From Methanobacteriota archaeon (lineage in GTDB: Archaea > JAADCQ01 > Methanopyri > Methanopyrales > Methanopyraceae): DNA of 64,000 nt. The notes under the pieces are model-generated. The model was not told the DNA's origin. It saw nothing but the letters and a program-made list of their open reading frames with translations, and ran no database searches. The stretch is taken from NCBI GenBank assembly GCA_027064305.1, contig JAMOPY010000001.1, positions 1-64,000 of the forward strand, in the 5' to 3' direction. Below, piece after piece: positions 24,066-62,572 of this stretch (positions are counted from its first letter, which is position 1; each line of letters begins with the position of its first letter). The position numbers were made by a program, and so were the translations under genes.

Positions 24066-25196
24066 GTGAGCGGGTACTACCGCCGGGATCCGGACGAGCT
24101 GCGGGAGGAGGGGTCGGGCGGTCTGAGCCTCTCCGGGCCCCGGAACCCGGTGCCGGACGCGAAGCTCGTGGAGTTAAAACCGTTGGGCTACCCGATCCGA
24201 GAGCCCGGGATGGGCAAGGAGGTGGTGGTGGACTCGTACGAGGCGTTCAACGCGTACGCCCGGGAGCAGTGGCTGGGGGAGATCGTGAAGGAGGGGATGA
24301 TCCTCTTCGATACGGGCATCGTGCACAGTTACGCGTTCAAGGTCGTGCGGGTCGTGCCGTCCGGGGCGGGTCGGGTCACCGCCAGCACCAAGTTCGTGCT
24401 GCGGCTGCGGTCCGAGGAGGATCGCATGGAGGTGCCCCGGCTCACCCTGGACGACGTGGTGGGGCACGCGGAGGTCAAGCGCGCGTGCCGGTTGCTGGTG
24501 GAGTACCTGAGGAACCCGGAGGAGCTGTCGGAGTGGGCGCCCCGGACGGTCCTCTTCCACGGGCCCACCGGCACGGGCAAGACCCGGACGGCCAAGGCCG
24601 TGGCGGGCGAGGCGAAGGTGCCGCTGCTTCGGATCAACGCGGCCGAGCTGCTGGGTAAGTACGTGGGGGAGGCGAGCGAGCGCATCAGGCGGGCGTTCAA
24701 GCGGGCGCGGGAGTCCGCCCCGTGCGTGCTCTTCGTGGACGAGATCGACGCGCTGGGGCTGGACCGCCGGTACCAGGAGCTGCGCGGTGACGTGGTGGAG
24801 AGCGTGAACTCCCTGCTCACGAATCTGGACCGGTTGAAGGAGCGGTCCGAGGGGGTCCTGTTCATCGCGGCCACGAACCACCCGGACCTGCTCGACCCGG
24901 CCCTGAAGAACCGGTTCGAGTACGAGCTGGAGTTCCGACCGCCGGACCGGGAGGAGCGGGAGGAGCTGGTTCGGTACTACGCGAAGCGACTCCCGCTACC
25001 CCTCAAGGTGGACCCGGCCTACATCGCGGCCCGGACCTCCGGCATGTCGCACCGGGAGATCAAGGAGCGGGTGCTCAAGCGGGCGCTGCTGGAGGCCCTC
25101 CGGGACGGGGCGGACGCCATCGAGAAGGAGCACGTCCGGCGCGCCCTGAGGGAGGAGGGGGGCGACAGGCGGGGGCGGCAGGTGTACCACGGGTGA
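24066..25196 (+). CDS. AAA+ ATPase, Cdc48/proteasome-ATPase-like, single AAA domain
   Basis: 376 residues from GTG 24066. A ~120-residue N-terminal domain, rich in beta strands (KEVVVDSYEAFNAYAREQW...), precedes one AAA+ module. Walker A is GPTGTGKT (166-173), Walker B VLFVDEID (222-228), the sensor 1 region FIAATNHPDLLDPAL, then an Arg-rich NRFE segment. The region after ~285 forms the small helical lid. It is likely a hexameric unfoldase or remodelling enzyme in the cytoplasm; the substrate is unknown. It is not the canonical PAN, which has a coiled coil and a C-terminal HbYX motif: this one ends RRGRQVYHG. Confidence 0.85.
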   Translation: MSGYYRRDPDELREEGSGGLSLSGPRNPVPDAKLVELKPLGYPIREPGMGKEVVVDSYEAFNAYAREQWLGEIVKEGMILFDTGIVHSYAFKVVRVVPSGAGRVTASTKFVLRLRSEEDRMEVPRLTLDDVVGHAEVKRACRLLVEYLRNPEELSEWAPRTVLFHGPTGTGKTRTAKAVAGEAKVPLLRINAAELLGKYVGEASERIRRAFKRARESAPCVLFVDEIDALGLDRRYQELRGDVVESVNSLLTNLDRLKERSEGVLFIAATNHPDLLDPALKNRFEYELEFRPPDREEREELVRYYAKRLPLPLKVDPAYIAARTSGMSHREIKERVLKRALLEALRDGADAIEKEHVRRALREEGGDRRGRQVYHG

Positions 25197-25221
25197 GCCC
25201 GCCGCGTGCGCGGGCCCGATC

Positions 25222-25257
25222 CCCCGCCGGGTCCCCGTCCGGGGTTCCCCGGCGGGG
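25222..25257 (-). ncRNA. Archaeal SECIS element in the selD 3' UTR
   Basis: On the minus strand, starting immediately after the selD TGA, the RNA reads CCCCGCCGGG, then GAA, CCCC, GGAC, GGGG, A, CCCGGCGGGG. The two 10-nt arms pair perfectly. The internal loop is GAA on one side and a single A on the other, followed by a 4-bp GC stem and a small apical loop. This is exactly the archaeal SECIS architecture described for Methanocaldococcus and Methanopyrus selenoprotein genes, which sits in the 3' UTR. It directs UGA at 26215-26217 to be read as selenocysteine. Read on the plus strand the GAA/A asymmetry is reversed, so it belongs to selD rather than to the AAA+ gene. Confidence 0.93.
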
Positions 25258-26235
25258 TCATCGGGGGTAGTCCTCCACCTCCTCGAGCCGGGCGTCCACG
25301 ACCACTCCCTCGCCCCGCTCCACCCGTCCAACGCGACGGTACCACACGTCCCGCTCCTCGAACGCGTCCTCCAGCTCCTCCGCCCTCCCCTCGGGCACCG
25401 CGACCAGCAGCCCGCCGGCGGTCTCCGCCGACTCGCCCCGCTCCAGCCCGTACCCCAACGCCCTGGAGACCTCCGGAGTCCCCGGGATCACGGGTATCCG
25501 CTCGATGACGACCCTGACCCCGCTCCGCTCGGCCAGCTCCCGCGCGTGACCTTTGAGCCCGAACCCGGTGACGTCCGTCATCGCCGTCGCCCCCGCCTCC
25601 ACCGCCGCCTCCGCCGCGTCCCGGAGCGGTTCCGTCATCACCTTCACCGCCACGCGCTCGATTCCCTCCACGTCCAGGTGGCCGAACATGGAGTCCAGGG
25701 TATCCTCCGGCATCCTCAACAGCGCCATCGCCGGCTGCGTGCCCAGCGGCTTGGTCAAGTACAGCAGGTCGCCCGGCCGGGCACCGTCCGCGGTCACGTA
25801 CCGCTCCGCCCACCCCGTCACGCTGCCGCCCAGGATCGGCCACGGGTTCAGGATCGTGTGACCACCGGTCACCGGCGCGTCCACCTCCCGGCACTGGTCG
25901 GCGAACCCCTGCAGCATCTCCCGGACGTCCTCCTCCGGCAGCTCCCGCGGGAACCCCGAGATCACCAGCACGGAGAGCACCTCGGTGGCGCCCATCGCGA
26001 ACACGTCGTTCAGCGAGTTGTTGGCCGCGATGCGCCCCTGGACGTACGGATCCGGATGGATGGGGGTGAAGAAGTCCAGGGACTGGACGAGGTAGCCGCC
26101 GTCCACGCGCACGATCGAGGCGTCGTCGCCCACGCCCACCTCGACCCGCTCGTCCTCCGGCAGCTTCACGCCCTCCAGCAGCCGCTCTAGGTCTCCCTGC
26201 GGCAGCTTGCAGGCTCACCCGTGCAGTTCAACCAT
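25258..26235 (-). CDS. selD: Selenide, water dikinase; itself a selenoprotein
   Basis: 325 residues from ATG 26235 if TGA at 26215-26217 is read as selenocysteine. The N-terminus is then [20 protein letters not shown] (U = Sec at residue 7), matching the HG(U/C)ACK active-site loop of SelD, and joins the rest in frame. The body shows [46 protein letters not shown] and [14 protein letters not shown], all SelD signatures. The enzyme makes selenophosphate from selenide and ATP for Sec-tRNA synthesis. A conventional gene call would start at the internal GTG 26169 and lose the catalytic residue. A SECIS follows at 25222-25257. pstK, a second Sec gene, lies at 61802-62572. Confidence 0.95.
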
Positions 26236-26447
26236 CCTCACGAGATCCTTCCGCTCGTTCAACGGCGCGCTCCCCCGGACGCACCCCCGCACCGCCCCGG
26301 AAAAACCGTTGCCCCGCGGTGGACCCGTACGTATCCGATTTCTCGATGGAAAGGCGTTCACGGTGGGTGGACTTCGGATGTGGAACGCCAGTATCATACC
26401 GTTTTGAGGGTCCCAATTCTCCCTAAGCCCGGGGAGGGGGCGATCCG

Positions 26448-59565: not shown

Positions 59566-61820
59566 CCCCCGCTCCCCTCACGCCCCCACAGGAATCTTCT
59601 GATCTTCCTGGCCCTCCGCTCGCCGATCCCCTCCACCCTCTTCAGCTCGCTGACCTCCGCCGTGACCACCCGGCCCACGGATCCGAACCGTTCCAGCAAC
59701 CTCCTCGCTAGTTCCGGCCCCACCCCCGGGATGCACGAGAGCATCTCCACCCTCAGGTCCTCCACGTCCCTCCTGCGCCGGGGCTGCGCGGGACGCTCGT
59801 CCCGGGCCACCCGGCGCGCCATCCGGTACAGCAGCTCGGCCGTCTCACCCGGGCCCGACGACTGCAGCACGGTCAATCCGAAGTCCACCGCCAGCGCCGC
59901 GAGCGCCCCGTCCACGGACTCCGGCTCCACCTCCCGGCGCGGGTTCCCCTCCACGATCAGCACCGGACGCTCGAACTCCCGGGCCAGCTCCCGCGCCTGA
60001 TCCATCAACCGCCCGTCCTTTAGCGACTCCGCGAAGTCCCGCTCCGACTTCCGCTCCACCCCCACCCGCTCCCCGATCACGTAGTCCGCCACCTCCAGGT
60101 TATCACGCTCCAACCTCACCGGCCGCCGCCGAAGGTGCTCCACCACCCGCGTGTTCATCTCACGGGAATCCACCACGATCGTGGGCACGTGCGGCGGGAC
60201 CCCGTCCTCCTCACCGCCCTCACGCTCCCCCGAGGTGCCTTTTTCCTTCAGGAACCGCGTCAGGGAGACCGCCCGATCGCCGCCCCGCCTCCGGACCCTA
60301 CGACCGCCACCGGAGGGACGGTCCGATCGCTCGGACCGTAGCCGCCGCTGCACCCGCCGGACCGCCTTCAGCATCCTCCGCTCCCGGGCCCTTGACACGT
60401 GGAAGTAGATCTCGTCCAGCGTGGGGAACCGGCCCCGAGACACGAGCACGTAGGCCGTGCCCGAAGACCCGTCCCTAGCCGTGCGCCCGATCCGCTGCAC
60501 GGTCCGTATCTCCGAGGGGACCGGCTCGTACAGGATCACCCGGTCGCAGGCCGGTAAGTCGAGCCCCTCCTCACCCACGCTCGTGGAGACCAGCACCCGG
60601 GCCTCCCCGGACCGGACCCGCTCGACCGCCTTCATTTGCCCCTCCTCGCCCATGTGCTGCTTGCCGAGCAGGAGCGATGCGGGCACGCCCTCCTCGCTCA
60701 GGAACCGGTGTAGGAGGCGGGCCGTGTCCACGTACTGGGTGAACACGAGGACCGTCCCCGACCCGCCCACCAGCTCCAGCACCCGGGGAAGCTTCGGGTG
60801 GTCCGGGCGCCCCCGGTTCACGGCCCGCTTCGCCACCCGCACGGCGCGCTGCAGGTCCGGGTCCCCGAGCACGCGCCGGAGCGCCAGGCCCCGCTGCCTA
60901 TCCCTCAGCCGCTCCACGTACCGGAGGAACGGTCGCGTCCCCTGCGTCTCCAGGATCTCCCGGCCCTTGGCCAGCCGGATCGCCTCCGCCACCACCCCGA
61001 GCGCTCGGGCGTAGAAGTCCGACCGCTCCCGCCTTCGGGCCTTCAGCTCCCGCAGTTCCTCACGCAGCGAGAGCAGGCGACCCGTCCAGACCCCGGAGAT
61101 TCGATCCAGGACCCCCATGTCCCGGAGCGTCTCGAGCCGGCGCCGGTACGCCCGGTGCAGCCCCTCCCGCGCCTCCTCGAACCAGTCGGGTAGCTCCACG
61201 TCCACCCACTCCACCCGCACCCGGCCCAGGTAGGGCTTCACGTCCGGATCCTCCTCCGTCTTGACGATGATCCGCTCGATCCCGAGGTTCCGCACCACCT
61301 CGTTGATCCGGTCGACGTCGGAGCCGGGCGAGGCGGTCAGGCCCACGATCAGACCGTTCAGCTCCCGGGCCACGTACACGTACGGGTACCCTCCCACGGC
61401 CCGGTGCGCCTCGTCAAAGACCGCGACCGTAAACCGGTCCGGGGAGACCCGGCCCTCGATCACGTCGTTCCGGACGACGTGCGGCGTGGCGACCACCACG
61501 TCCGCCCGCTTCCATAGGGTCCCGCGCTCGTCCGGCCGGACCCGCCCCGTCAGCGCCAGGACCTCCAGCCCCTTCGTCACCCGCTCGATGAGCCGGGCGT
61601 GCTGCTCCACGAGCGGCACGGTGGGGGCCAGCATCAGGGCCTGACCGCCGCGCTCCTCCAGCGCGCCGGCGATCGTCAGCACCCCTACGACCGTCTTCCC
61701 CAGGCCGGTGGGCATCACGACGAGGGTGTTCTCCCAGCTCTCCAGGATCTCCCGGGCCGAGTTGACCTGGTACCTGCGCCGTTCCAGCACGTCCCAGCGG
61801 ATCAGTCTCCACCTGACCAT
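59562..61820 (-). CDS. hef: Hef helicase-nuclease (XPF/Fanconi-M family)
   Basis: 752 residues from ATG 61820, overlapping the pstK stop. The N-terminal superfamily 2 helicase has [12 protein letters not shown] (Walker A), [13 protein letters not shown] (DEAH) and later [14 protein letters not shown] and [38 protein letters not shown]. After a basic linker the XPF nuclease core appears ([11 protein letters not shown]...[20 protein letters not shown], with the ERKxxxD motif), followed by a helix-hairpin-helix pair ([38 protein letters not shown]). It processes stalled or branched replication forks. Confidence 0.96.
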
Positions 61821-62572
61821 CGTCTCAGGACCTCCTCCGCCCGCTCTCGAAACCGCCTCACGGCCTCCTCCGGGTCGTCGCACTCGGACGCGATCTCCCG
61901 GCGGATGCGGCTCAGGATCTCTCCCAACCTTTGAGAGGCCTTCCCCTCCCTCGCGGCCCTTTTCATGATCTCACCCATCGCCCTCCTGGTGGCCCGGTCG
62001 ACCTCGTCCACGGACTCCGGGTGGGGCCGGCGCTCGCGCTCCTCGGGCCGGTGCACCGAGAGCCCCGATCGGACGAACCTCAGGACCCGGTCCGTGACCT
62101 CCGGCTCGGTCAGTCGCAGCGCGCTCCGCTCCCACCACCGGTCCGGGTTCGGCGGCTCGAACCGCTCGTGCAGCCGGCGCACCACCTCGTCGGGGACGGG
62201 GCGGCCCCGGTCGGCGTTCCGCCGGAGGCACTCCTCCAGCGGCACGTCCAGCCACGCGATCCCCCACGGGACCTCCCGCTCCAGGGCCAGCCGGGCCAGC
62301 TCCCGGCGCATGCTGGCGTAGTAATTGGTGTCGTCGGCGATGACCAGGTCCAGACCCTCCTCCAGCAGCGCTTCCACGGCGCGGAGGAAGGTCCTGCGGG
62401 CGACTCCCTCGAGCCGGGGCCTGAACCGGCCCCGCCAGAGGAACCCGCGGATGGCGTCCGCCTCGACGTGCGCCACGTCCCAGCCCTTTCGGCGGAGGGA
62501 GGCGGCCAGCTCGGTCGCGAAACACGTTTTACCGGAGGCCGGTGGTCCCGCCAGGATCAGCAGCCTGGTCAC
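61802..62572 (-). CDS. pstK: O-phosphoseryl-tRNA(Sec) kinase
   Basis: 256 residues from GTG 62572 with GGTGAC upstream. P-loop [24 protein letters not shown] (~7-30), then [21 protein letters not shown] and [16 protein letters not shown](RRL), all features of PSTK. It phosphorylates Ser-tRNA(Sec) to Sep-tRNA(Sec) before conversion to Sec-tRNA by SepSecS. Together with selD (25258) it supports an active selenocysteine system, needed for selD's own UGA. The protein has a longer basic C-terminal tail than short PSTKs. Confidence 0.88.

Follow-up and report, generated by a model that had tools for sequence, protein, structure and literature searches.

The selenoprotein gene selD of a Methanopyrus species, its SECIS element and a possible structural role for the terminal UGA

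Introduction

SECIS-dependent insertion of selenocysteine (Sec) is well-established biology (PMC9622424, PMC11881835). In M. maripaludis the GAA/A internal loop is essential in vivo and the SECIS of sps had the highest activity among the natural elements tested (PMC11881835), and no strict distance limit applies to archaeal SECIS (PMC9622424). The closest described systems are the Sec-containing SelD (SPS) of Methanopyrus and the Methanococcales with their euryarchaeal GAA_A SECIS (PMC11227280, PMC11881835). They share with the gene analysed here the UGA in the motif HG-U-ACK, a 3' SECIS, and the GAA_A loop between GC clamps. A GUGA-type motif in Methanopyrus selD has been published, as has the finding that UGA stops overlap AUGA in Lokiarchaeia (PMC11227280); a complete eukaryote-like structure is not reported there for these clades.

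Two further systems invite comparison. In Asgard selD the terminal UGA likewise lies within an [A/G]UGA_GA core (PMC11227280); these elements are mostly eukaryote-like (type I/II), lack a strict GAA_A hairpin, and are followed by a second hairpin with a GNRA-like loop. Eukaryotic SECIS possess an AUGA_GA kink-turn core and an apical AA. No SBP2 homologue is known in archaea (PMC2933860, PMC11881835).

The DNA examined here (the window) comprises 64,000 nt of contig JAMOPY010000001.1 in assembly GCA_027064305.1. It almost certainly contains, as the best explanation of the locus as a whole, the selD gene of a Methanopyrus species whose product is a Sec-containing selenophosphate synthetase. Since Sec-SelD with a 3' SECIS has already been published for Methanopyrus, the gene adds a further species and is in itself an ordinary finding, without essential difference from its described counterparts. 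This precedent (PMC11227280), the apparent involvement of the terminal UGA in the structure, and the probable start codon were absent from a preliminary description of the DNA. Comparisons within the genus involve the window's genome (G000) and four relatives (G001 to G004).

Results and Discussion

The selD reading frame and selenocysteine machinery

25258..26262, minus strand: selD coding sequence from the proposed start TTG 26262; 334 aa, Sec at residue 16 (NF010705, TIGR00476, five-species comparison)
26215..26217, minus strand: UGA predicted to be read as Sec in HG-U-ACK (frame and motif; kept in the genus; aligned with Cys in PDB 2yye and 5l16)
61802..62572, minus strand: likely pstK, L-seryl-tRNA(Sec) kinase (TIGR03574, E 1.3e-69, profile positions 1-246 of 249, below the curated cut-off)

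With the TGA at 26215-26217 read as Sec, the minus-strand frame from ATG 26235 begins MVELHGUACKLPQ, and the SelD body beyond it is open as far as the TGA at 25258-25260. The preliminary description had proposed this HGUACK reading, and frame and motif confirm it. By profile the product belongs to the SelD family (NF010705, 431.7 bits against a cut-off of 291; TIGR00476, 246.6 bits against 125), and the UGA aligns with the Cys of the SelD proteins of known structure from Aquifex (2yye) and Leishmania (5l16). The standard ORF call begins at GTG 26169 and, as had been predicted, loses the catalytic residue. Automatic annotation drops the catalytic residue of selD and also overlooks its SECIS: a search with 4227 Rfam models at E up to 5 returned no SECIS match there.

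A start at ATG 26235 with a conserved N-terminus had also been claimed; the conservation is real, but the ATG is probably not the start. Homology extends 9-10 codons upstream of it (x-K-x-LVEM in all five species of the genus), the four relatives have an ATG or GTG at that distance where the window has TTG 26262, and the alignment of NF010705 to the window protein begins at profile position 11. Because of these three observations we regard TTG 26262 as the likelier start on comparative grounds, in which case the gene would span 25258-26262.

The N-terminal alignment with methanogen SelD that had been suggested as a check bears out the Sec codon. UGA occupies it in all five genomes of the genus and, among the Methanococcales (33 of 36 genomes match selD), in each of the 32 matches that cover the site; the same is true of 29/29 readable selD loci in an Asgard class (that of G055). 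Neither a Cys-SelD start elsewhere in the locus nor homologs lacking UGA, Cys or SECIS were seen. The window's genome encodes a tRNA-Sec (67.1 bits, anticodon TCA; G000:C42) and SpcS (559.5 bits; G000:C25). The ORF at 61802, previously named pstK, aligns full-length with TIGR03574, yet its 234 bits fall short of the curated cut-off of 290.5.

The SECIS element

25222..25257, minus strand: SECIS hairpin; stems of 10 and 4 bp separated by GAA (25245-25247) facing A (25232); GGAC loop

Starting with the first base past the terminal stop, the 36 nt of the SECIS (25257-25222) read CCCCGCCGGG-GAA-CCCC-GGAC-GGGG-A-CCCGGCGGGG, which corresponds exactly to the two stems and the GAA/A loop of the preliminary description. 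The archaeal layout claimed for it is likewise supported: as in a euryarchaeal SECIS, the GAA/A loop lies between GC clamps, the stem has 3 bp or more and the element is located in the UTR (criteria of PMC11881835). RNA folding of 25210-25262 gave -34.8 kcal/mol, a z of -2.4 relative to dinucleotide shuffles, 4 of 200 of which folded equally stably. Across 21 distinct selD SECIS sequences all nine pairs of the lower stem covary, and 98.8% of lower-stem cells are paired compared with 67% after shuffling, a figure generous to the structure because pairing was a condition for including a row. A SECIS model matches the window element with 30.9 bits, its training set including this sequence. Motif, conservation, covariation and Sec machinery together support a Sec-SelD with a canonical archaeal SECIS directly after its stop.

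The terminal UGA and the AUGA/GA quartet

25258..25260, minus strand: terminal stop UGA, predicted 5' half of an AUGA/GA quartet (U25260.U25219, G25259.A25220, A25258.G25221)
25215..25221, minus strand: GAU (25221-25219), predicted to complete the quartet on the 3' side, and CGGG (25218-25215), predicted 3' strand of a flanking stem, complementary to CCCG 25265-25262
25262..25265, minus strand: CCCG within the last selD codons, predicted to form the 5' side of the flanking stem

The terminal stop of selD is UGA in all five genomes of the genus. In its predicted pairing the window element has the core of a eukaryote-type SECIS, [A/G]UGA_GA between two helices, with 10 bp above and below it a potential 4-bp flanking stem, CCCG/CGGG, containing one bulged A; analogous flanking stems are present at other Methanopyrus SECIS. 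Order and spacing are those of the eukaryotic element (quartet, helix of about 10 bp, unpaired A residues, short apical stem), whereas the unpaired residues form a GAA_A internal loop and not an apical loop or bulge. The published GUGA motif already implies a terminal UGA within the quartet, although the text consulted of PMC11227280 does not spell it out for Methanopyrus, and the flanking stem in this genus is a small addition to that motif.

In the complete relative G002 (1,694,969 bases, one contig), SECIS were sought with a rule for the GAA_A loop, the GC clamps and the stem. The eight best elements belong to seven known selenoprotein genes, fwuB, selD, fruA, hdrA, fdhA (in the 5' UTR), vhuU and vhuD, and to one unknown gene, a new candidate. 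A/G-UGA stands exactly 10 nt before GAA in six of the eight, and RUGA in 15 of 17 Methanopyrus SECIS. At fruA, hdrA, vhuU and vhuD the quartet is present and another codon is the actual stop: a UAA further upstream in fruA and hdrA, another UGA some 13 nt above the quartet in vhuU and vhuD. The quartet UGA of fruA terminates the gene in G000 and G003, while in G001 and G002 the upstream UAA does so and AUGA/GA is still kept. The flanking stems differ by gene and are complementary throughout (CCC/GGG, CGG/CCG, CCG/CGG, CCGC/GCGG). Six G002 elements retain the quartet, four of them without using it as the stop, and we therefore regard it as a probable structural feature that in selD has fused with the stop codon. 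It is not a universal requirement, since the selD quartet is imperfect in two of the five genus genomes (AA instead of GA in G001, GC in G004) and most Methanococcales selD SECIS lack it.

Two simpler arguments were rejected. Terminal UGA in five of five genes is not significant by itself, UGA accounting for 57% of the stops in G002 (composition-selected ORFs) and for 37% in a small ORF sample from the window. The notion that UGA serves as terminal stop only where a SECIS touches it fits selD and the new candidate, but many touching SECIS follow UAA or UAG, and the terminal UGA codons of vhuU and vhuD in G002 show that termination does not depend on touching the SECIS. At best there is a limit of about 15 nt on the distance between SECIS and terminal UGA, and this is not proven.

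In the Asgard class of G055 (L009, L059-L087) the terminal codon is UGA in 29/29 readable selD loci and lies within a eukaryote-like SECIS core. The end of the selD coding sequence there, GAGACCG, can pair with CGGTCTC beyond the second hairpin (GCAA or GCGA loop), which suggests a three-way junction.

Proposed mechanism

Going by conservation and known biology, tRNA-Sec(UCA), supplied through PSTK and SpcS, would read the UGA at codon 16 as Sec under the direction of the SECIS that begins at the first base past the stop. The terminal UGA, with GA across the hairpin, would form a kink-turn-like quartet, with 10 bp separating it from the GAA/A loop above. Folded, the element would serve ribosomes at codon 16, approximately 960 nt upstream; a ribosome arriving at the terminal UGA would cover the first 10-15 nt of the SECIS and melt its base, so that normal termination follows. 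We put forward tentatively, as a possibility somewhat short of an even chance, that the selD stop contributes structurally to the gene's own SECIS, that its kink-turn core needs an L7Ae-type binder, that the terminating ribosome disrupts the recoding signal, and that the same element drives the candidate gene described below in G001, G002 and G004. If true, this would give a single mRNA a built-in means of separating two UGA codons and would constitute an archaeal version of the core seen in eukaryotic SECIS. Methanopyrus SECIS, combining the methanogen GAA_A loop with a predicted kink-turn core of eukaryote-like type, allow a direct test for an L7Ae-type binder.

Alternative readings

The standard ORF call, and nothing else, speaks for the UGA at 26215 as a true stop with SelD beginning at GTG 26169 devoid of its active-site residue. 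We consider this next to impossible: the N-terminal motif is conserved across the UGA in dozens of genomes, the residues above it align with the profile and with solved SelD structures, and both a SECIS and the Sec machinery are present. Slightly less remote, yet still very improbable, is partial decoding of the terminal UGA as Sec to yield a C-terminally extended SelD. It is the same codon on the same mRNA, a SECIS is at hand and archaeal elements have no strict distance limit (PMC9622424), but the extension passes through the SECIS itself; its short conserved PRRGTP follows from the RNA, and the extensions vary by species and in G001 and G002 end at a TAG six codons on.

The quartet and its flanking stem might instead be a functionless by-product of GC-rich sequence and a common stop codon. 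UGA is the commonest stop in G002, the selD quartet is broken in G004 and altered in G001, and many functional Methanococcales SECIS do without it (PMC11881835). Against this, RUGA recurs at an identical distance in six of the eight G002 elements, four times not as the stop, the flanking stems differ among genes and remain complementary, and the motif was noted independently (PMC11227280). We judge a by-product unlikely, while giving it appreciable weight, and retain the structural reading of the quartet as the probable one.

A candidate selenoprotein with a Sec-Gly-Sec motif

L106:733-1131 (G004:C49), minus strand: V-Sec-Gly-Sec, UGA stop, SECIS and kink-turn quartet directly behind
L184:1501-1899 (G002:C1:1183606-1184004), minus strand: 46% homolog; same V-U-G-U, SECIS and quartet
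L185:1501-1836 (G001:C1:1397752-1398087), plus strand: 45% homolog; same V-U-G-U, SECIS and quartet

Although trained only on selD, a SECIS model also hit an element of 35.1 bits in G004, immediately after the UGA stop of a small ORF, which contains TGA-GGG-TGA in frame. Homologs occur in G001 and G002; none was found in G000 and G003. Between the G001 and G002 genes the changes by codon position number 1/1/9 above the motif and 3/5/8 below it, with no indels in the compared part, and TGAGGGTGA is unchanged. The membrane segment of the G001 gene is out of frame with the rest, with a net 5-base difference from G002 (L276, G001:C1 ~1397600-1397760), because of which this copy may be damaged or misassembled.

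AlphaFold2, reading across both UGA codons, models residues 28-133 as a confident strand sandwich, most of it with pLDDT above 90, in which U-G-U falls within a loop. A search for a close fold match to the model found none, and the protein shows a weak Ig-like/carboxypeptidase-regulatory resemblance and nothing more. There are no Cys homologs among 394 archaeal relatives. In G001 and G002 the gene comes after that of an ABC protein, for which NCBIfam gives methyl-CoM reductase component A2 as the best match, below the cut-off; this neighbour is present without the gene in G000 and G003. The protein is not named in the literature searched, which included a minority of the subscription papers. 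It is apparently an undescribed Methanopyrus selenoprotein candidate, predicted to be small, membrane-anchored and of sandwich fold. That a candidate with two Sec residues should apparently have gone unreported in a complete Methanopyrus genome suggests that archaeal selenoproteomes are not fully listed.

A second hairpin and the neighbouring gene

25195..25217, minus strand: second GC hairpin with a CACGC-containing loop, just below the SECIS; its base competes with CGGG of the flanking stem

Since similar GC hairpins stand behind fruA and the G004 Sec-Gly-Sec gene, this one may be a general 3'-end feature and not part of the SECIS. It adjoins the stop of a gene convergent with selD (24066-25196, plus strand), which specifies an AAA ATPase with PRS2 N- and C-terminal domains (PF23900, PF23902).
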